Source of the DNA: Luteimonas sp.
GTDB taxonomy: Bacteria; Pseudomonadota; Gammaproteobacteria; Xanthomonadales; Xanthomonadaceae
Reading direction: 5' to 3'
Assembly (NCBI GenBank): GCA_014380115.1
Contig: JACMKK010000173.1
Span: forward strand, 1-33,516
Length of the DNA: 33,516 bases
Under the pieces are notes generated by a model. That model saw only the letters and a list, made by a program, of their open reading frames with translations, had not been told where the DNA came from and ran no database searches. The translations under genes were made by a program, and so were the position numbers. Below, piece after piece: positions 7,189 through 20,505 of the stretch (positions are counted from its first letter, which is position 1; the number at the start of each line of letters is the position of its first letter).

Positions 7189-10100
7189 TCAGAACGTCAC
7201 GCGGAGCGTCGCGGCATAGCGTGTGTCGTTCACATACCAGGAGGTGACGCGCCGGCCGGCTCCGTTCTGGTCCATGATCGTGCGCTGTTCGGCGTTGTTG
7301 AGATTGTTCATCTCCAGGCCGATCTTGATGTTGTCGTTGAAGCTGTAGAAGACCGAGGCGTCCAACTGGCCGTATTCGTCGCTGTACACCGGCAGTTTCC
7401 AGGCAATGGCTTCATCATCGAGGTTGTTGTTGGTGCCGTTGTAGCCGTTGGGTCCGACCGACAGCAGGTACTCGCTGCGCCAGTTGTAGGCCACGCGGAC
7501 CTGCCAAGGGCCCTTCTCGTAGAACGCGGCGACGTTGTAGGAATTCTTGGAGAGGCCGTCGGCCGGCAGGTCGCCGAACGTCGAGCCATCGGTGTCGACC
7601 GGCTCCGCATCATCCTCATCCGGCACGTCGGTCGAGCTGTCGATGTAGGTGTAGTTCGCCGAGATACCGAAGCCGTCGAATGGCGCCGGCAGGAAGTCGA
7701 AGAACTGGTTCCAGCCGATCTCCGCACCCTGGATGCGCGCCTCGCCAGTGTTGATGGTTTGCGTGACCAGGTACTCGTATTCGTTGCCGTCGGCGCCCGG
7801 ATAGGGCACCAGCCGCGACTGGTTGCGGAAGTAGTCCTTGATGTCCTTGTGGAAGAAGTTGATCCAGGCCATGCCGCCCTTGTCCGGATCGAAGTACCAC
7901 TCCAGCGACAGGTCGAACTGGTTGGCCTTCATCGGCTCCAGGTACGGGTTGTCGGTGGAACTGCCGGTGAGAACCAGCCTGTCGAGCGGCAGCTCGGTAG
8001 TGCCCGGTGGCGGCGTGTAGCCCGGCTCCACGGCAGCGCTCAGCACCTGGTAGGTCTGCATGTCGCTGAAAGCGGGCCGGGCGATGGCCTTGGAGGCCGC
8101 AAAACGCACGATCAGATCGTCGACCGGTTCCCAGCGGACATTGAGGCTGGGCAGGATGTCGGTATAGGAATTGCTGGCCGTGATCGACTCCGATTCGCCG
8201 GCGCCCAGATACGGCGCAAAGGCTTGGTTCGGATAGACCAGGAACCCCTGGGCGGTATTCTCGGTGCGCACCGCGCGCACGCCGACATTGCCGTCAAGAC
8301 GCATGTCGTCCACGGCGAAATCCAGCATCGCGTAGGCGGCGGTGGTGGTCTCGTTCTGCACGTTGCTCCACTGCGGATCGCGTATGTTCCGCGGCGTGAT
8401 CTGCCCATAGCAGCAGGTGTAGTACGGGGCGGCGGCGCCGTGGATCGCGAGATAGCTGTCCGGGAACCCGAGCGCCGTGGCCAGCACGGGCGCAAAGAAG
8501 GAGCCCGGTGCATTGACATCGCCCCGGTAGAAATTGTCGAAGGTGTTGAGGTGCGTCAGGCTGGAGTTGACCTGGTCGTTGAGGTCCAGACCAGGCAGCT
8601 GGCCTGCCGGCACCGCCCAGGGCTGCTGCCAGGGCTGGAACACCGGTTGCCAGTCGTAGCCGGTATCCCTGCTGGTGGCGCCGCGATCGGTCATGCGGAC
8701 GCCGAACTTGACCGCCCGGAAGAAGCCGCTGTCGAAGCTGTGCTTGAGGTCGGCGCGCCACGCCACCTGGTCGGCGACGTTGTCGTCGCGATGGTCCATG
8801 GTGAAACCCCAGTAGTAGTTGGCTGGGTTTCCCGTGAACTCTTCGTCGATGCCGACCGACGGCGTGCCGCCGGTGAGGTTGACGTCGATATAGGGCACGT
8901 TGACGCCGAGCGACACCGTGGAATCCAGCCTCCGGGTCTCGGCCTTGACGTACTGCAGGTCGGTCGTCAGTTCGGTGCTGTCGCTGAGCGTCCACTTCAG
9001 GCCGAGGGAGAAGTCGGTGGTCTTGGACTTGCTGTTCGAGGCGCGGATGTCCGTGCCCATGGGGATATCGCCAGGCTGGACGAGCCGGCCCGAGCGGAAC
9101 ACGTTGCCGTCCAGTTCGAAAGGCTGGCTGGTGTCGATCGCGACCGCGGTGGGATCGTTCCCGACGAAGATGGCGTCCTCGTTCCAGAGCTCGTCGTACC
9201 GGCTCTGGAAGCCGGTGGCGTGAAGCTCGACGTCGTCGCTGGGTTGCCACTGCAGGGCTACGTAGACGCCCTGGCGTTCGCGTTCGAAATCCAGCGTGCG
9301 CCAGTCGGCGCCGCGCGGCAGCCAAAGTCGCTCGTTAGTGCCATCGCCGTCGACATCGGTGTTGTCGGTCTCGAAGAATGGCCGCACGAACATGCCGTCG
9401 GTGCGGGTGGCGAGTTCCGAATGCGCGACATCGATCAGGAAGCCGACCTTGCCGATGTTGGTGTCCCAGTTGTTGCTGTACAGGGCGGAGGCGGAAGGCT
9501 TCCATTTCTCGACGAAGTTGCCGTAGTTCTCGCTGAGGCTGAAGCCGATCCTCTGGCCTTCGAAGTCGAAGGGCTTGAAGGTGCGCAGGTCGACGGTGCC
9601 GCCGAGGCCACCCTCGATCATCTCGGCCTTTTGGTTCTTGTACACGTCGACGCCGGCCATCAGTTCGGAGGGCACGTCCTGGAAGCCGATGGCACGGCCG
9701 CCGTTCGCCGAGAAAGTGTCGCGGCCGTTGAGTTCGGAACGCACCTGGGTCATGCCGCGGACCTGCACGCCGCTGCCTTCGGCGGAGGGGTGTTCCGGAT
9801 CGCCCGCCGAGAGGAAGCGGTCGATGGTCACGCCGGGGATGCGCGACAGGGTTTCGGTGACGCTGCGATCAGGCAACGCACCGATGTCCTCCGCGGTAAC
9901 CGAGTCGACGAAGGTGTCGGCGGAGCGCTTGATGTCCTGGGCCCGGTAGACGGCACCACGGATTCCGGTGACAACGACCGTGTCGAGTTCCTTCGTCTCC
10001 TTGCTGTCCTGCTTGGCGCTGTCCTGCTTGGCGCTGTCCTGCTCGGTGTCCGCAGTCGCCTCGGCCGCTTCCTGCGCATACGCGTTGGCGCTGAGGAAGA

Positions 10101-10194
10101 CGGCGATGGCGAGCGCCATGGCCGAACGCCTCGCCTCGCGGCTGGAACCCTTGTACGCCCGGCGACTCGCCGGCTGGCTTTGACGGATTGACAT
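7189..10194 (-). CDS. TonB-dependent receptor, Xanthomonas/Caulobacter polysaccharide class
   Basis: 1001 residues, normal for this class. The ATG at 10194 is preceded by GGAGGGAG and opens a long basic n-region and signal peptide ending SANAYA (cleavage near residue 40). A Gln/Asp/Ser/Ala/Lys linker with three QDSAK-like pentads follows, then a TonB box (DTVVVTG, 71-77). The plug holds SADTFVDSVTAEDIGALPDR and TETLSRIPGVTIDR. The remainder is a beta barrel ending in a C-terminal aromatic (AATLRVTF), as needed for Bam insertion. It should import oligosaccharides across the outer membrane with TonB-ExbB-ExbD energy. Its position at the head of the GH3-GH74-GH2-esterase genes suggests xyloglucan oligosaccharides as ligand. 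No anti-sigma-binding N-terminal extension is visible. Confidence 0.93.
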   Translation of the reverse strand: MSIRQSQPASRRAYKGSSREARRSAMALAIAVFLSANAYAQEAAEATADTEQDSAKQDSAKQDSKETKELDTVVVTGIRGAVYRAQDIKRSADTFVDSVTAEDIGALPDRSVTETLSRIPGVTIDRFLSAGDPEHPSAEGSGVQVRGMTQVRSELNGRDTFSANGGRAIGFQDVPSELMAGVDVYKNQKAEMIEGGLGGTVDLRTFKPFDFEGQRIGFSLSENYGNFVEKWKPSASALYSNNWDTNIGKVGFLIDVAHSELATRTDGMFVRPFFETDNTDVDGDGTNERLWLPRGADWRTLDFERERQGVYVALQWQPSDDVELHATGFQSRYDELWNEDAIFVGNDPTAVAIDTSQPFELDGNVFRSGRLVQPGDIPMGTDIRASNSKSKTTDFSLGLKWTLSDSTELTTDLQYVKAETRRLDSTVSLGVNVPYIDVNLTGGTPSVGIDEEFTGNPANYYWGFTMDHRDDNVADQVAWRADLKHSFDSGFFRAVKFGVRMTDRGATSRDTGYDWQPVFQPWQQPWAVPAGQLPGLDLNDQVNSSLTHLNTFDNFYRGDVNAPGSFFAPVLATALGFPDSYLAIHGAAAPYYTCCYGQITPRNIRDPQWSNVQNETTTAAYAMLDFAVDDMRLDGNVGVRAVRTENTAQGFLVYPNQAFAPYLGAGESESITASNSYTDILPSLNVRWEPVDDLIVRFAASKAIARPAFSDMQTYQVLSAAVEPGYTPPPGTTELPLDRLVLTGSSTDNPYLEPMKANQFDLSLEWYFDPDKGGMAWINFFHKDIKDYFRNQSRLVPYPGADGNEYEYLVTQTINTGEARIQGAEIGWNQFFDFLPAPFDGFGISANYTYIDSSTDVPDEDDAEPVDTDGSTFGDLPADGLSKNSYNVAAFYEKGPWQVRVAYNWRSEYLLSVGPNGYNGTNNNLDDEAIAWKLPVYSDEYGQLDASVFYSFNDNIKIGLEMNNLNNAEQRTIMDQNGAGRRVTSWYVNDTRYAATLRVTF
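10004..10048. repeat. 15-bp tandem repeat inside the receptor gene
   Basis: The 15-base unit CTGTCCTGCTTGGCG occurs at 10004-10018 and exactly again at 10019-10033. A third, imperfect unit begins at 10034. On the coding strand it encodes QDSAK-type pentads between signal peptide and TonB box. Being a multiple of three, copy change would lengthen or shorten the periplasmic linker without a frameshift. Confidence 0.8.
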
Positions 10195-10364
10195 GGCTGC
10201 TCCCTCCGGAGGAACTGGCGTTGCGTCGAGATGGTTAGAAGCTGGTGACCGAGTGGCGCGTGGCAAGGCTGGTGTTGGAGTCAATCGGTACGGGGCCATC
10301 CATGTCGTGCTGCTGTTACCGTCGCCGTCGCTGTCAATGTCGTGGGGCATGGTCCGCGCCGGCG

Positions 10365-10380
10365 ATGTTACCGCTAACAT
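10365..10380. promoter_or_regulatory. LacI-family-type operator upstream of the TonB receptor
   Basis: ATGTTA-CCGC-TAACAT is a 16-base inverted repeat with perfect 6-base arms, in an AT-richer pocket 171 bases before the receptor ATG. The TGTTA-nnnn-TAACA form is the usual operator of LacI-family sugar regulators; Caulobacter XylR sites look very similar. A possible half-site (TGTTACCG) lies at 10314. No LacI-family gene is present in the window. Confidence 0.6.
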
Positions 10381-10547
10381 ATTTGTTCGCAGCTTTGAGC
10401 TCGAACGGCGCCGGGCGCGTCGTGCGCGTACGCACGGGCACTCGACAGCGCGGCGATCGCGAGCGCGATGGCCGAACGCCGGGATCCACGGCTGGGGGAT
10501 TGGCGCGCCACCCGGTTGGCTGAGGGGTGGCTCTGGCGCGTTGACAT
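10374..10547 (-). pseudogene. Duplicated 5' end of a TonB receptor gene (RBS plus signal peptide), truncated
   Basis: An ATG at 10547 with GGAGGGAACAATC before it opens a 57-residue frame starting MSTRQSHPSANRV and continuing RRSAIALAIAALSSARAYAH. It is plainly a relative of the start of the intact receptor (MSIRQSQPASRRA, RRSAMALAIAVFLSANAYAQ). The match extends to the DNA, including the ribosome site and GGCCGAACGCC. Similarity ends after the signal peptide and the frame stops at 10374, on the LacI-type operator. It is best read as the remnant of a second receptor gene or a local duplication. A translated leader peptide is possible but unsupported. Confidence 0.65.
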
Positions 10548-10680
10548 GATTGTTCCCTCCCAGGAGCCATGGCGAACGGTGTCGAGTTCTGACCGGGCCG
10601 TGGCGCTCCCGACTTGTTGCCTCAAGCTGGCTTGCCGACTCCGCTCTACCGGCGGATACCTGGCGCTGGCGCCGTCCGTT

Positions 10681-10777
10681 GTGGAATACATTGTGGCTTC
10701 GGCCCGAGAATAGGTTGTCGTCGCCATGCCATACCAATGAAATATTCCACTTTAGCTATCTTCTTTTGGAATATATT
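10681..10777. promoter_or_regulatory. AT-rich regulatory segment with TGGAATA boxes after the LysR gene
   Basis: Between the LysR stop and the receptor leader an AT-rich stretch holds AATATTCCA (10741-10749) and TGGAATATATT (10767-10777), an inverted pair centred near 10758. A further TGGAATA lies at 10682-10688. The same GGAATA/TATTC element recurs beside the LysR start codon. It is a candidate LysR binding region for the receptor promoter. No convincing -35/-10 pair could be fixed. Confidence 0.4.
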
Positions 10778-10803: not shown

Positions 10804-11814
10804 TCAGTCTTCGCCCAGGTAGCCAAGGTCCTTCGCCTTGCCGCGGCGCAAGCCTTGCGGAGGCGGCAGTTCGGCGTAGAGCCGGCGCGCGGTGATGCGT
10901 AGCTGGTCGAGCACCCGCTGCCCGCCCGGCGAAAGCAGATGGTCGCGGCGGCGGATGATGCCGAAGGATTCGATGCTCACGCCCAGCTCGATCGGCAGCA
11001 CGGTCAGCATGTTCGCCTGCGTATACGGTGCGATCGAATCCACCGGCAGTGCCGTCAGCAAGTCGCTGTTGCGCAACAGGCTGGTGATCACCGGCAGCGC
11101 TGAGGTCTCGACGATGTTCTGCGGCCAGCGCAGGCCGCGTTCGAGGAACATCGCATCCATGCGCGAACGCAGCAGGCTGGCTGGGGGCGGCAGGATCCAG
11201 CCGAACTCGAGCAGGTCCGCGTGTTCGAGGCGGCGACGCCGCGTCAGCGGATGCCCGGCGCGGGCGATCAGCGAATGCGGCTCGTCGGCCAGGGGCTCGA
11301 AATCCAGCTCTGCCAGTCCATCCGGCCCGAGGATGCGGCCGATCACCATATCGAGCTGGCCGTCGACCAACCTCGCCACCAGCGGGCGGCTATAGTCCAT
11401 CTCGACGCGGATCAGCAGGTCGGGGAACTCGCGCTTGACCGCCGCAATCGCCTGCGGGACCAGGTTGGTGCCAGGGTTGACCACGGTGCCGATGGCCACC
11501 TGACCCATCTGCCCGCTGCGCAGCGCGGCGATCTCATCGTGGGCACGGCTGAGTTCGGTCAGTGCGGTGCGGGCATGACGCAGCAAGACCTGGCCATACC
11601 AGGTCGGCTCCACGCCACGCGCGTGGCGCTCGAACAGCTTGACCCCGAGCATGCTCTCCATCTCCGCCAGCAGCTTGGAGGCCGCCGGCTGGGTCATGCT
11701 GGCCGCCTCCGCCGCCCGCAGCACCGAGCCGTGCTCGGACAGATGCAGCAACAGCAGCAATTGCCGGGTCTTCAGTCGTGTGGCGTTCGCCCAGTTCGTG
11801 CCTGTCTGGCTCAT
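10804..11814 (-). CDS. LysR-family transcriptional regulator, GbpR-like
   Basis: 336 residues. The N-terminal winged helix-turn-helix is clear (TRQLLLLLHLSEHGSVLRAA, MTQPAASKLLAEMESMLGV, KLFERHARGVEPTWYG). The effector domain follows from about residue 100 (GQVAIGTVVNPGTNLVPQAI, QLDMVIGRILGPDG). The pattern EHGSVLRAAE...MTQPAASK...LFERHARGV is that of the GbpR/PcaQ branch; GbpR members respond to galactose-type sugars in other proteobacteria. Its position, divergent from a galactose catabolic operon and ahead of the polysaccharide receptor, fits control of both. ATG 11814 has AGGA about 7 bases upstream. The palindrome at 11828-11844 lies 13 bases before the start codon and suggests autoregulation. 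Effector and target assignment are inference. Confidence 0.9.
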   Translation of the reverse strand: MSQTGTNWANATRLKTRQLLLLLHLSEHGSVLRAAEAASMTQPAASKLLAEMESMLGVKLFERHARGVEPTWYGQVLLRHARTALTELSRAHDEIAALRSGQMGQVAIGTVVNPGTNLVPQAIAAVKREFPDLLIRVEMDYSRPLVARLVDGQLDMVIGRILGPDGLAELDFEPLADEPHSLIARAGHPLTRRRRLEHADLLEFGWILPPPASLLRSRMDAMFLERGLRWPQNIVETSALPVITSLLRNSDLLTALPVDSIAPYTQANMLTVLPIELGVSIESFGIIRRRDHLLSPGGQRVLDQLRITARRLYAELPPPQGLRRGKAKDLGYLGED

Positions 11815-12898: not shown

Positions 12899-13540
12899 AT
12901 GACTCCCCCGCCCGACGACGCCATCGCTGACCTTACTTTCCGGCTGCCGCTGATCGCGATCCTGCGCGGCATCCGGCCGGATGAAGTGCATGCGCATGTC
13001 GACGCGCTGGTCGCAGAAGGCTACGACGCCATCGAGATCCCGCTCAATTCGCCGCAGTGGGCGCTCGGCATCGGCGACAGCGTGCGCAGCTTCGGCACAC
13101 AGGCCTGGATCGGCGGCGGCACCGTGCTGCGCGAGGAGGACGTCGATGCATTGCAGGCATTGGGAGCGCGCTTCATCGTCACGCCGAACACGCGGCCGGC
13201 GCTGATCCGGCACGCGGTCGCGTGCGGCCTGCAGGTCGTGGCGGGTTTCGCCACCGCCAGCGAGGCCTTCGCTGCGCTCGATGCGGGTGCGCAGGCGCTC
13301 AAGCTGTTTCCGGCTTCCAGCTACGGTCCCTCTCACGTGCGCGCATTGCGCGCGGTGCTGCCGCCGGTGCCGTTGTTCGTGGTCGGCGGCGTCAGTGCGG
13401 ATTCGCTGCCCGCTTTTCTCGCTGCCGGCTGCATCGGCGCCGGCATCGGCGGCGAACTGTACCGGCCGGGGCAGCCGCCCGAACTGACGCGGAACCACGC
13501 CCGGATATTCAAGCAGGTCTACATGGAAGCGACCCGATGA
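12899..13540 (+). CDS. dgoA: 2-dehydro-3-deoxy-6-phosphogalactonate aldolase
   Basis: 213 residues, a class I KDPG/KDPGal aldolase. Visible motifs are [22 protein letters not shown] (Glu46), [17 protein letters not shown] and the Schiff-base Lys135 in [12 protein letters not shown], ending with VVGGVSAD. It splits KDPGal into pyruvate and glyceraldehyde-3-phosphate, the last step of the De Ley-Doudoroff route. The start ATG 12899 lies 40 bases after the dehydrogenase stop. The gap holds a short imperfect repeat (TTGAAGCCGCGA / TTGAGACCGCGA). The stop overlaps the start of the dehydratase gene as ATGA. KDPG specificity cannot be excluded from sequence, but the neighbours argue for KDPGal. Confidence 0.9.
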
Positions 13541-14685
13541 AGATCGTCCGCGCAGAAACCTTCCACGCCGCGCCGCGCTGGCTGTTCCTGAGGATCGAGA
13601 CCGACGACGGCGTCGTCGGCTGGGGCGAGCCGATCGTCGAAGGCCGCGCCGCGACCGTCGAGGCCGCCGTGCAGGAATTGTGCGAATACCTGATCGGCAA
13701 GAATCCCTCGCGCATCAATGACCTGTGGCAGACGCTGTACCGCGGTGGCTTCTATCGCGGCGGCCCGGTGCTGATGAGCGCCATCGCCGGTATCGACCAG
13801 GCGCTGTGGGACATCAAGGGCAAGACGCTGGGCGTGCCGGTTCACGAACTGCTCGGCGGCCGCGTCCGCGATCGCATGAAGACTTATCGCTGGGTCGGCG
13901 GCGACCGTCCCGCGGACATCATCGCGCAGATGAAAACGCTGCAGGCGCTAGGTTACGACACCTTCAAGTTCAACGGCACCGAAGAATTCGCCATGCTCGA
14001 CGGCCCGCGTGCAGTGGATGCGGCGGTGGAAAAAGTGGCGGAGATCCGCGCCGCGTTCGGCCACTCGATCAGCTTCGGCATAGACTTCCACGGCCGCGTC
14101 AGCATGCCGATGGCCAGGGTGCTGCTGCGCGAACTCGAACCGTTCCGTCCCCTGTTCGTCGAGGAACCGGTGCTGCCCGAGCAGTCCGAATACTATCCGC
14201 AGCTGGCGGCGGCGACCCCGATCCCGCTGGCCGCCGGCGAACGCATGTATTCGCGCTTCGACTTCAAGCGCGTGTTCGAGCGTGGTGGCTTGTCGATCGT
14301 GCAGCCGGACCTGTCGCACGCCGGCGGTATCACCGAATGCATCAGGATCGCCGCGATGGCCGAGGCCTACGACATCGCCCTCGCACCGCACTGTCCGCTC
14401 GGGCCGGTGGCGTTGGCGGCCTGCCTGCAGGTCGATTTCGTGTCATGGAACGCCGTGCTGCAGGAACAGAGCATCGGCATCCACTACAACCAGGGTGTCG
14501 ATCTGCTCGACTACGTGATCAACAAGCGCGACTTCGATTGCGTCGACGGCTACATCGCCGCGCTGCCTGGCCCGGGGCTGGGCGTGGAGATCGACGAGGA
14601 GCGGCTGCGTGCGGCGGCCGCGGACCCGCCGCATTGGCGCAACCCGGTCTGGCGGCATGCCGACGGCAGCATCGCCGAATGGTGA
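13537..14685 (+). CDS. dgoD: D-galactonate dehydratase
   Basis: 382 residues, the same length as Escherichia coli DgoD. As I recall that enzyme's key residues, they fall at identical numbers: metal ligands Asp183, Glu209 and Glu235, His185 in [13 protein letters not shown], and His285 in LAPHCPLGP. The enolase-superfamily capping domain opens the protein ([20 protein letters not shown]). The enzyme removes water from D-galactonate to give 2-keto-3-deoxygalactonate in the cytoplasm. It overlaps the aldolase gene by 4 bases, and its stop touches the start of the lactonase gene (TGATG). The frame is open far upstream inside the aldolase gene, but that extension is out-of-phase aldolase sequence. 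Confidence 0.95.
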
Positions 14686-15611
14686 TGGCGATGACCGAGC
14701 ACGCCGCTGCAAACGCCGAACCGGTACTCGCGGTCGACAGCCGCTGCGAACTGGGCGAATGCGTGCTGTGGTGCGAGCGGCGCGGGGCCTTGTTCTGGAC
14801 CGACATCGCGTCGGCGCGACTGTGGATGCACATGCCGGACAGCGGCGCCACACAGCATTGGGATCTGCCCGATCGTCTGGGCTGTTTCTCGCTGTGCGAC
14901 GACGGCCGGCTGCTGCTGGGTCTGGCGAAAGGCCTCTTCCTCACCGATCCTGACGGGCCACCGGGCACCTCCCTGGTGTTGCAGCATGTTGCCGACGTCG
15001 AGCGCGAACGCGACGACACGCGCATCAACGACGGCCGCAGCGACCGCCACGGCAACTTCGTGTTCGGCACCAAGGACGAACGCGACGGCAGCGCGTCTGG
15101 CGGCTACTACCAGTTCTCGTTTGCGCATGGCCTGCGCCGCCTCGCCCTGCCGGAGGCAGCCACTCCCAATTCCATCTGCTTCAGCGGCGACGGACGCACG
15201 ATGTACTTCTGCGACTCGCGCGAACCGGAAATCCTGCGTTGCGACTACGACGCGGATCGCGCCATGGTTTCCAATGTGCGCAGGTTCACGCGCATCGATG
15301 CCGCGGGCGCGTCGCCGGATGGTTCGATCGTCGACGCCGAAGGCTGTTTGTGGAACGCGCAATGGGGCGCCGCTCGCGTCGTGCGTTACCGGTCCGACGG
15401 CAGCATCGAACGCAGCGTGTCGATTCCGACGAAGAACCCGTCCTGCTGCACGATCGGCGGTGCCGCCTTCGACCAGCTCTACGTCACGACCGCACGCGAG
15501 GACCTGAGCGCGGACGAACTGGCGCGCATGCCGCATGCAGGCGGCGTTTACCGCATGCCGCTGGCGGACGTGCGCGGGATGCCGGAAAGCCGTACGGTGA
15601 CCGCGCCATGA
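14685..15611 (+). CDS. SMP-30/gluconolaconase-family sugar lactonase (probable galactonolactonase)
   Basis: 308 residues, a six-bladed propeller lactonase of the SMP-30/GNL family. Divalent-metal ligands correspond to Glu25 (LGECVLW), Asn162 (TPNSICFSGDG) and Asp212 (SPDGSIVDAEG); the spacing matches human SMP30 within one residue. RINDGRSDRHGNFVFGT is the usual substrate-loop motif. In this operon it should hydrolyse the galactonolactone made by the dehydrogenase. ATG 14685 shares its first base with the dehydratase stop; ATG 14679 and 14691 are in frame and also possible. The 3' end overlaps the kinase start as ATGA. Confidence 0.9.
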   Translation: MAMTEHAAANAEPVLAVDSRCELGECVLWCERRGALFWTDIASARLWMHMPDSGATQHWDLPDRLGCFSLCDDGRLLLGLAKGLFLTDPDGPPGTSLVLQHVADVERERDDTRINDGRSDRHGNFVFGTKDERDGSASGGYYQFSFAHGLRRLALPEAATPNSICFSGDGRTMYFCDSREPEILRCDYDADRAMVSNVRRFTRIDAAGASPDGSIVDAEGCLWNAQWGAARVVRYRSDGSIERSVSIPTKNPSCCTIGGAAFDQLYVTTAREDLSADELARMPHAGGVYRMPLADVRGMPESRTVTAP

Positions 15612-16492
15612 TCGCCATCGACTGGGGCAGCAGCAGCCTGCGCGCCTACCGCCTTGGCGACGACGGCGCCATCCTCGACCAACGCCGTGCCGACGTCGGC
15701 GTGCTGTCTTGCGACGGGCGCTTTGCCGATGTCCTCGCCCGCCACCTCGACGGCTGGGACGACGCGCGCATCATGATGTGCGGCATGGTCGGCGGTCGTG
15801 GCGGCTGGATGGAGGTGCCGTACGTGGAATGCCCGGCTGGCGAACACGAGATCGCAGCCGCGATTGCTCCACTCGAGAATGGTCCGACGATATTCGCAGA
15901 GCGCGACCTGCGGATCGTTCCGGGCATGATCGATCGCGGCTCCTCGCCGATCGCCGACGTGATGCGCGGCGAAGAGACGCAGATCATCGGCCTGCTCGAC
16001 AGCCTGGTCGAGGGCGTCCACACCATCTGCCTGCCGGGCACGCACAGCAAATGGGTCCAGGTGCGCGATCACGCGGTCTCGTCCGTCCGTACCGCGATGA
16101 CGGGCGAGGCCTACGCGCTGTTCCGTACCCATAGCGTGCTGGCGCGGTTGATGGCGATGGAGGATCCGCCTTTCGATGCCGCGGCTTTCGACGACGGGTT
16201 GCAACGCAGCGGCGATGCGGGCGGGCTGCTGCACCACCTATTCGGCATCCGCACGGCAGGGCTGCTCGGACGCCTGTCGGATACGCAGTCGCCCTCGTAC
16301 CTGTCGGGATTGCTGATCGGCCACGAAATCCGCGCACAGGCGCCGCGTCCGCAATGCGTGCACCTGATCGGCAACGATCGCCTGCTGACTGTCTACGCCC
16401 ACGCGCTGGCAGCGTTCGGCATCGAAGTCCGGCGCCATTCCGAGGATCTCGCGGCCATCGGCCTGCATCGCCTGGCACGCGTGATGGCGTAG
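15608..16492 (+). CDS. dgoK: 2-keto-3-deoxygalactonate kinase
   Basis: 294 residues, usual DgoK length. The N-terminus MIAIDWGSSSLRAYRL is the family's phosphate-binding start. Further family segments are MCGMVGGRGGWMEVPYVECP, GEETQIIGLL, CLPGTHSKWVQV and SYLSGLLIGHEI. It phosphorylates 2-keto-3-deoxygalactonate to KDPGal with ATP, the step before the aldolase. It is last in the operon and joined to the lactonase by ATGA. The five genes cover every enzymatic step from galactose to pyruvate plus glyceraldehyde-3-phosphate, but no sugar permease is linked. Confidence 0.93.
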   Translation: MIAIDWGSSSLRAYRLGDDGAILDQRRADVGVLSCDGRFADVLARHLDGWDDARIMMCGMVGGRGGWMEVPYVECPAGEHEIAAAIAPLENGPTIFAERDLRIVPGMIDRGSSPIADVMRGEETQIIGLLDSLVEGVHTICLPGTHSKWVQVRDHAVSSVRTAMTGEAYALFRTHSVLARLMAMEDPPFDAAAFDDGLQRSGDAGGLLHHLFGIRTAGLLGRLSDTQSPSYLSGLLIGHEIRAQAPRPQCVHLIGNDRLLTVYAHALAAFGIEVRRHSEDLAAIGLHRLARVMA

Positions 16493-18342: not shown

Positions 18343-20505
18343 ATGAAGAGCACTCGGTTTGCCTTGATCACCACTGCCGCGTTGATGATCGCCGCGTCGA
18401 TCCCGATCGCGGCACTCGCGGGCGAAGTGTGCGAAACCACCGACGGCACCGTCACCACACCTCCCACCAGCACCGCTGCGGGCGTGAACGCACTCGCCTG
18501 CGGCAATTCCAACACAGCGTCCGGCGAAGGCAGCACCGCCGTCGGCAACGCCAGCGTCGCGTCCGGTGACGTCAGTCAGGCGTTCGGCTTCGGCAACAAG
18601 GCGACGGGCGAGCACAGCACCGCGATCGGCGACTCCAATACCGCGGCCGGGGCCTACAGCACCGCGGTCGGCCGCGCCAATTTCGCCACTGGCGACCTCA
18701 GCCAGGCCATCGGCATCGGCAATTCAGCGTCCGGCGCACGCAGCACCGCGGTCGGCAGCTTCAATGTCGCGTCCGGTGACTTCAGTCAGGCCGTCGGCTA
18801 TGGCAACACCAGCGACGGGCCCGAGAGCACGGCCGTGGGTTTCGCGAACTACGCCGGCGAGTTCGGCACGGCCATGGGCAACAACAACACGTCTTCCGCT
18901 TTGAACAGTACGGCCGTGGGCAGCATGAACACCGCCGAAGGCCAATTCAGTCAGGCCTTTGGCTACAGCAGCAAGGCGTCGGGCGAGCACAGCACCGCGG
19001 TCGGCAGCTCCAACACCGCGGCCGGGGCCTACAGCACCGCGGTCGGCCGCGCCAATATCGCCAATGGCGTCTTCAGCCAGGCCATCGGCGCCGCCAACAC
19101 CAGCGACGGGCCCGAGAGCACGGCAGTGGGTTTCGCGAACTACGCCGGCGAGTTCGGCACGGCCGTGGGCAGCGGCAATAGCGCGACTGGTTCGGTCGCC
19201 TCCGTATTCGGCCGCTATAACAAGGCGCCCGGCGCCCTAAGCCAGGCCATGGGCAACTACAACACGTCTTCCGCTTTGAACAGTACGGCCGTGGGCAGCA
19301 TGAACACCGCTGAAGGAATTTTCAGCCAGGCCATCGGTAACTACAACACCGCTACGGCGGGGAACGGCACCGCAATCGGCGTGGCCAATACTGTGCAAGT
19401 GGGCGCATTGAACAGCTCGGCTTTCGGCGGCTTCAACACGGTCCAAGGCCGCGACAGCGTGGCGACAGGCCGCAGCAATCAACTGGCCGGCAGGAACAAC
19501 ATCGGCCTCGGCACCAGTAACGTCGTCAGCGGCGACTGGGCCACCGCGATCGGCACCAGCAATCAGGTTTCCGGCTTGAACGGTATCGCGCTGGGCAATT
19601 TCGCCGTGGTGACGGCGACCGACAGCGTAGCGATCGGCACGAACTCGGTCGCCGATCGCGAAAACACCGTGTCGATAGGCGCTAGCAGTGGCACGTATCG
19701 GCAGCTCGTCAACCTTGCCGCAGGCGTGCAGGACAACGATGCAGTCAACGTGGCGCAGTTGTTTCCGTTCGCCACTGCGCTCGGCGGTGGCGCCAGCTTC
19801 AGCGGCGGCGTGCTGTTCGCGCCCACCTATACGATCCAGGGCAGCAACTACAACAACGTCGGCTCTGCGTTCGCCGCCGTCGACGCGCGCCTGACCACGC
19901 TCGGCAGCCAGGTCGGGACGCCGGGACCGGCCGGTCCGCAGGGACCAGCCGGTCCGCAAGGTCCTGCCGGACCGCAGGGCCCAACCGGTCCACAAGGACC
20001 GGCCGGCTCAGGTGGTGCGGATCCGGAGGCCGTGCGTTATGACGACGCCAGCCATGCCCAGGTCACGCTCGACGGTGCGGACGGCACGCGCATCAGCAAT
20101 GTCGCCGACGGCGTCGCCAACACCGACGCTGCCACTCTCGGCCAGGTCCAAGCCGGCGATGCGACCACGCTGCACAGCGCGAACACCTATACCGATCAGA
20201 AGTTCGCATCCCTCGACCTCGAGTTCGGCAATCTGCGAACGGAAATCAACGACCGCTTCGAGCAACAGGACCGGCGCATCGACAAGGTCGGCGCCATGGG
20301 CGCAGCGATGGCCAACATGACCGCTTCGGCCGCCGGCGTACGCACCCAGAACCGGATCGCGATCGGCGTCGGCAATTACCGCGGCGCCAATGCGCTGGCG
20401 TTCGGCTACCAACGCGCCCTCTCCGATCGCGCCGTCGTCACGATCGGCGGCGCCTTCAATGGCGACGACAGCCAGGTCGGCGCAGGCGCGGCGTTTGGGT
20501 GGTGA
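18343..20505 (+). CDS. YadA-like trimeric autotransporter adhesin with collagen-like segment
   Basis: 720 residues. A signal peptide (about 1-26, ending PIAALAGE) is followed by Cys30 and Cys53, then a long YadA head of roughly 14-residue repeats ([19 protein letters not shown] type; about 55-450). The first neck motif is [20 protein letters not shown] (from 453). After TTLGSQV come ten Gly-X-Y triplets (525-554; GPAGPQ units). A second neck ([20 protein letters not shown], from 582), a coiled-coil stalk ([20 protein letters not shown]) and a four-strand YadA anchor ending in Trp (about 650-720) complete it. It should be a surface homotrimer for adhesion or autoaggregation. The head contains a 375-bp internal duplication. 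No Shine-Dalgarno sequence better than ACGGA is seen. Confidence 0.93.
18606..19320. repeat. Internal 375-bp duplication in the adhesin head
   Basis: The block from GGGCGAGCACAGCACC at 18606 recurs at 18981, and AACACGTCTTCCGC at 18886 recurs at 19261, both with a 375-base (125-residue) offset. A third shared segment (AACACCAGCGACGGGCCCGA) is at 18805 and 19096, offset 291. The order is A-B-C-A'-B'-C' with some spacer change, a recent tandem duplication plus small rearrangement. Confidence 0.8.
19915..20004 (+). repeat. 18-bp repeats encoding the collagen-like Gly-X-Y tract
   Basis: Five near-copies of an 18-base unit (GGACCGGCCGGTCCGCAG and variants) encode [12 protein letters not shown]. 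Each copy is also nearly palindromic. Gain or loss of copies would change the collagen segment length in frame. Confidence 0.85.

Follow-up and report, generated by a model that had tools for sequence, protein, structure and literature searches.

A YadA-type adhesin from a Xanthomonadaceae genome with a probable collagen triple helix in its stalk

A 33,516-nucleotide stretch of DNA (here, the window) from a metagenome-assembled genome of the Xanthomonadaceae (88% complete, 574 contigs) encodes a YadA-type trimeric autotransporter (TAA) adhesin that carries a collagen-like segment in its stalk. We consider it probable that this segment, which lies between a DALL-like domain and a YDD domain, forms a homotrimeric collagen triple helix acting as a spacer. 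The protein is a trimeric autotransporter of the YadA family, which suggests a homotrimeric state at the cell surface. The analysis established the sequence, the order of domains, the conserved position and periodicity of the segment, and its variation in length among relatives; the triple-helical fold, the spacer role, and the function in adhesion are inferred.

The features of the gene and its product are collected in Table 1. The C-terminal YadA anchor (PF03895) scored 34.2 bits against a Pfam cutoff of 22.7, and both the YadA_head family (PF05658, 10 stretches) and the YadA_stalk family, which corresponds to the neck (PF05662, 2 stretches), were detected above their cutoffs. Alignments to solved structures gave the domain order as neck 1, DALL-like domain, Gly-X-Y run, YDD domain, neck 2, coiled coil, and anchor. 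The entries that matched the domains on either side of the run (2yny, 2yo2, 3wpa, and 3wpo) come from SadA of Salmonella and AtaA of Acinetobacter, and the domain names DALL and YDD apply to these entries. Within the head, Tandem Repeats Finder (TRF) also reported a 375-bp internal duplication at 18572 to 19337 (2 copies, 77% matches).

Table 1. Features of the adhesin gene, in window coordinates
Feature	Residues	Coordinates	Strand	Basis
Complete ORF, YadA-type TAA adhesin (ATG at 18343, stop codon ends at 20505)	720 aa	18343..20505	+	ORF call, Pfam
Putative signal peptide	1-26	18343..18420	+	Typical N-terminus, judged by eye
Head, left-handed beta-roll YadA_head repeats	~42-456	18466..19710	+	Pfam; matches to BpaC 7o23 and 1p9h
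Neck 1 (17 residues)	457-473	19711..19761	+	YadA_stalk best stretch 454-487; 2yo0 alignment
DALL-like beta layer and short helix	474-524	19762..19914	+	2yny/2yo2 and 3wpa alignments
Collagen-like segment, ten perfect Gly-X-Y triplets	525-554	19915..20004	+	Pfam, alignments, shuffles
Degenerate 18-bp tandem array, codes GPA-GPQ units		19919..20006	+	TRF
YDD domain (21 residues)	563-583	20029..20091	+	3wpo match, 3wpa alignment
Neck 2 (19 residues)	584-602	20092..20148	+	Second YadA_stalk stretch; motif by eye
C-terminal coiled-coil stalk	~603-664	20149..20334	+	Sequence; helix at 631-664 in low-confidence model
YadA_anchor outer-membrane beta-strands	671-720	20353..20502	+	Pfam PF03895

A first-pass annotation of this DNA had placed ten perfect Gly-X-Y triplets between two YadA necks. 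The ORF, the Pfam matches, and a shuffling analysis all agreed with that description, and its coordinates were right. Elsewhere in the protein the longest Gly-X-Y run is 2 triplets, and among 5,000 shuffles of the protein sequence the maximum was 7 triplets in a row, with 2 to 3 being usual, compared to the 10 observed. The segment also resembles solved collagen peptides in sequence alignments. The Pfam Collagen family (PF01391) matched residues 525 to 558 with 19.2 bits, below the cutoff of 27.2. The run is short; relatives with longer runs (L080, L048, L074, and L087) passed that cutoff. Given the alignments to solved stalks, the position can be stated more precisely than between two necks: the run follows a DALL-like helix of the kind found in SadA and precedes a YDD domain like that of AtaA. 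A Gly-Pro reading frame on the antisense strand was dismissed as a by-product of the GGN and CCN codons.

We then asked how widely the segment occurs. A profile of the slot between the DALL-like and YDD domains was run on 52 genomes of the same genus, 399 of the order, and 399 of the phylum; many of its matches span the DALL part alone, so the number of genomes matched does not give the number of collagen slots. By direct inspection of the retrieved sequences, we found 52 distinct TAA ORFs, including that of the window, with at least 5 perfect triplets, distributed over approximately 15 genera and two families of the order as assigned from genome labels. The best named relatives were a Xanthomonadaceae metagenome-assembled genome, Lysobacter profundi, and Luteimonas gilva. 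Most runs, which range from approximately 4 to 18 triplets, are located at the DALL/YDD junction, and runs at this same junction were present in same-genus relatives, in L. profundi and L. gilva, and in other genera. A stricter count gave 30 DALL-to-YDD slots with perfect runs of 4 to 18 triplets, five further slots with runs that have Gly in the Y position too, and 16 other, collagen-free slots that we read as internal repeats of other TAAs; because the loci were chosen with a profile that contains collagen, the proportion of collagen slots is biased upwards.

The first-pass annotation had named homologues lacking glycine periodicity as an observation that would refute a collagen-like stalk segment. 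Most homologues keep the periodicity within the conserved slot, with repeat types GPP, GPT, GPQ, and GPE. Two relatives depart from this pattern. In L094, which shares 62% identity with the window protein from neck 1 to the anchor, the run is absent, the slot is nearly empty, and both flanks are continuous; in L078, the slot holds a proline-rich, non-collagen sequence. Since these two proteins do without a Gly-X-Y run, the architecture does not strictly require the segment.

We propose that three identical chains would be exported via the Sec pathway and inserted into the outer membrane by their C-terminal anchors, with the beta-roll repeats forming a head atop the stalk. At the Gly-X-Y segment, the flanking trimeric domains would hold the three chains together, and the segment most likely folds as a homotrimeric collagen triple helix of approximately 9 nm. 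At the 2.9 Å per residue of a collagen triple helix (PMC3368898), the calculated length of the segment, if triple-helical, is approximately 8.7 nm. Such a rod would act as a stiff spacer that sets the distance between head and cell, perhaps with a flexible joint where coiled coil changes to collagen. A single-chain AlphaFold model based on four sequences had a mean pLDDT of 35 and was not usable.

The triple helix is the likeliest fold because the trimeric flanks would hold the chains together and because bacterial collagens fold without hydroxyproline (PMC8968730, PMC3368898). With only ten triplets and no hydroxyproline, its stability at growth temperature is uncertain, and the same shortness is an argument for reading the segment as a flexible polyproline-II or disordered linker that is too short, and too poor in hydroxyproline, for a stable triple helix. 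That the corresponding slot holds a proline-rich linker in L078 and almost nothing in L094 points the same way. However, a linker needs no strict period of three, whereas Gly is kept at every third position across the GPP, GPT, GPQ, and GPE relatives, and the trimeric neighbors favor a triple helix; overall, we judge a linker improbable.

Run length differs between species and between paralogues, in a data set with one genome per species. It is possible, though slightly less likely than not, that the DALL/YDD junction permanently accommodates a collagen rod of approximately 4 to 18 triplets, which is gained, lost, and resized among species and paralogues, thereby tuning the length and stiffness of the stalk in the Xanthomonadaceae and a neighboring family, mostly in environmental bacteria.

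How such changes in length might arise bears on another statement of the first-pass annotation, that the repeat consists of 18-base units able to slip. The array itself exists: TRF reported 18-bp units in 4.9 copies with 77% matches. The ability to slip, however, is doubtful, because the units are only 12 to 16 of 18 bases identical, differing at two to six positions that are nearly all third codon positions, and because the longest exact direct repeat in the array is 11 bp. This pattern fits old repeats kept by selection on the protein rather than fresh slippage. The view that the array is a slippage hot spot altering stalk length among strains is compatible with a collagen rod and draws on the copy number, on the variation in run length among species and paralogues, and on two published VtaA8/VtaA_N4 sequences that differ by 18 aa inside a collagen repeat (PMC6211672). 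Given the divergence of the units, the short exact repeat, and a comparison set of one genome per species, we think it unlikely.

Collagen-bearing TAAs are already known, so the combination found here is not new. The VtaA proteins of Haemophilus (Glaesserella) parasuis, which we liken to the window protein by architecture, have a YadA head, stalk, and anchor, and their passenger carries collagen triple helix repeats ahead of the C-terminal anchor (PMC6211672, PMC6755704), and a quoted 18-residue VtaA fragment is rich in GPT, GPQ, and GPA, as is the window segment. The two differ in extent and in their N-termini: the VtaA proteins of strain Nagasaki have 2 to 8 Pfam collagen repeat domains, in contrast to the single run of ten triplets here, and they are drawn with ESPR signal peptides, whereas the window protein has no ESPR match in Pfam. 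Deleting the collagen region of VtaA2 reduced attachment to collagen without reducing it for most of the other substrates examined (PMC6755704). By analogy, the segment might be mainly a binding site that associates with collagen or with triple helices of other kinds, and not a spacer. This seems very unlikely given the short run in the window protein, the variation of relatives in length and in X and Y residues, among which a shared binding motif was not evident, and the probably environmental habit of the organism, as judged from its relatives.

Other systems resemble parts of the proposed collagen rod and its surroundings. The stalk modules of SadA and AtaA have DALL-like and YDD domains like those flanking the slot, but in the alignments their matched solved stretches, unlike the window protein, are without a collagen run. 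In EPclA of Escherichia coli, as in the window protein, a hydroxyproline-free collagen domain adjoins a trimeric coiled coil; it melts at 42°C, and a hinge between the two has been suggested (PMC3368898). EPclA is, however, a prophage collagen-like protein rather than an autotransporter, and its collagen domain has 111 residues. The collagen-like proteins of the Burkholderia cepacia complex resemble the window protein in having collagen-like repeats in proposed surface adhesins, but PMC10224339 treats them as a class of their own, which carries a "bacterial collagen-like, middle region" domain. In the open-licence literature, we found no paper titles on Xanthomonadaceae YadA proteins with collagen. 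Our data indicate that collagen-like stalk segments of TAAs are not confined to H. parasuis and that many bacteria of the Xanthomonadaceae type have them at one particular junction. Together with the naturally segment-free L094, the window protein offers a ready pair for testing the role of a short, hydroxyproline-free collagen rod between trimeric domains.

The codons of the segment are unusual. GGC accounts for 1 of its 10 Gly codons, compared to approximately 80% in the remainder of the ORF, and across the 52 ORFs it makes up 36% of Gly codons in Gly-X-Y segments versus 71% elsewhere; in the window and its relatives, the Gly, Gln, and Ala codons of the collagen segments are all strongly unlike those of the remaining ORF. 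Across 400 kb taken from one genome of the genus, using mechanically picked ORFs of which some may be spurious, GGC was used for 34% of Gly codons before Pro versus 50%, and CAA for 36% of Gln codons before Gly versus 18%. Because GGC is rarer before Pro in ordinary same-genus ORFs too, its avoidance is mostly a matter of codon context, and we rejected foreign origin and selection against slippage as causes.

A SAYE-like module (SAYE..., NGF.GTE, WL.SL) lies beside the collagen run in many relatives, among them L013, L049, L050, L077, L087, L093, L104, and L035, the last from Acinetobacter venetianus. Pfam reported no family for the module in L049 or L087. It usually precedes the run and follows it in L087.

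The adhesin gene is preceded by a peroxiredoxin gene and followed by ankyrin-repeat, LytTR-regulator, and histidine-kinase genes, all on the opposite strand, and inspection of these neighbors revealed no obvious partner gene beside it. A sigma-70-like promoter was not found near the gene, although a sigma-70 search says little for this bacterial group. Elsewhere in the window, genes for a TonB-dependent receptor, a LysR regulator, an enolase-superfamily enzyme, and a 2-keto-3-deoxy-galactonokinase occupy 7192 to 10737 (-), 10807 to 11814 (-), and 13057 to 16489 (+), which suggests a putative cluster for the uptake and breakdown of sugar acids.
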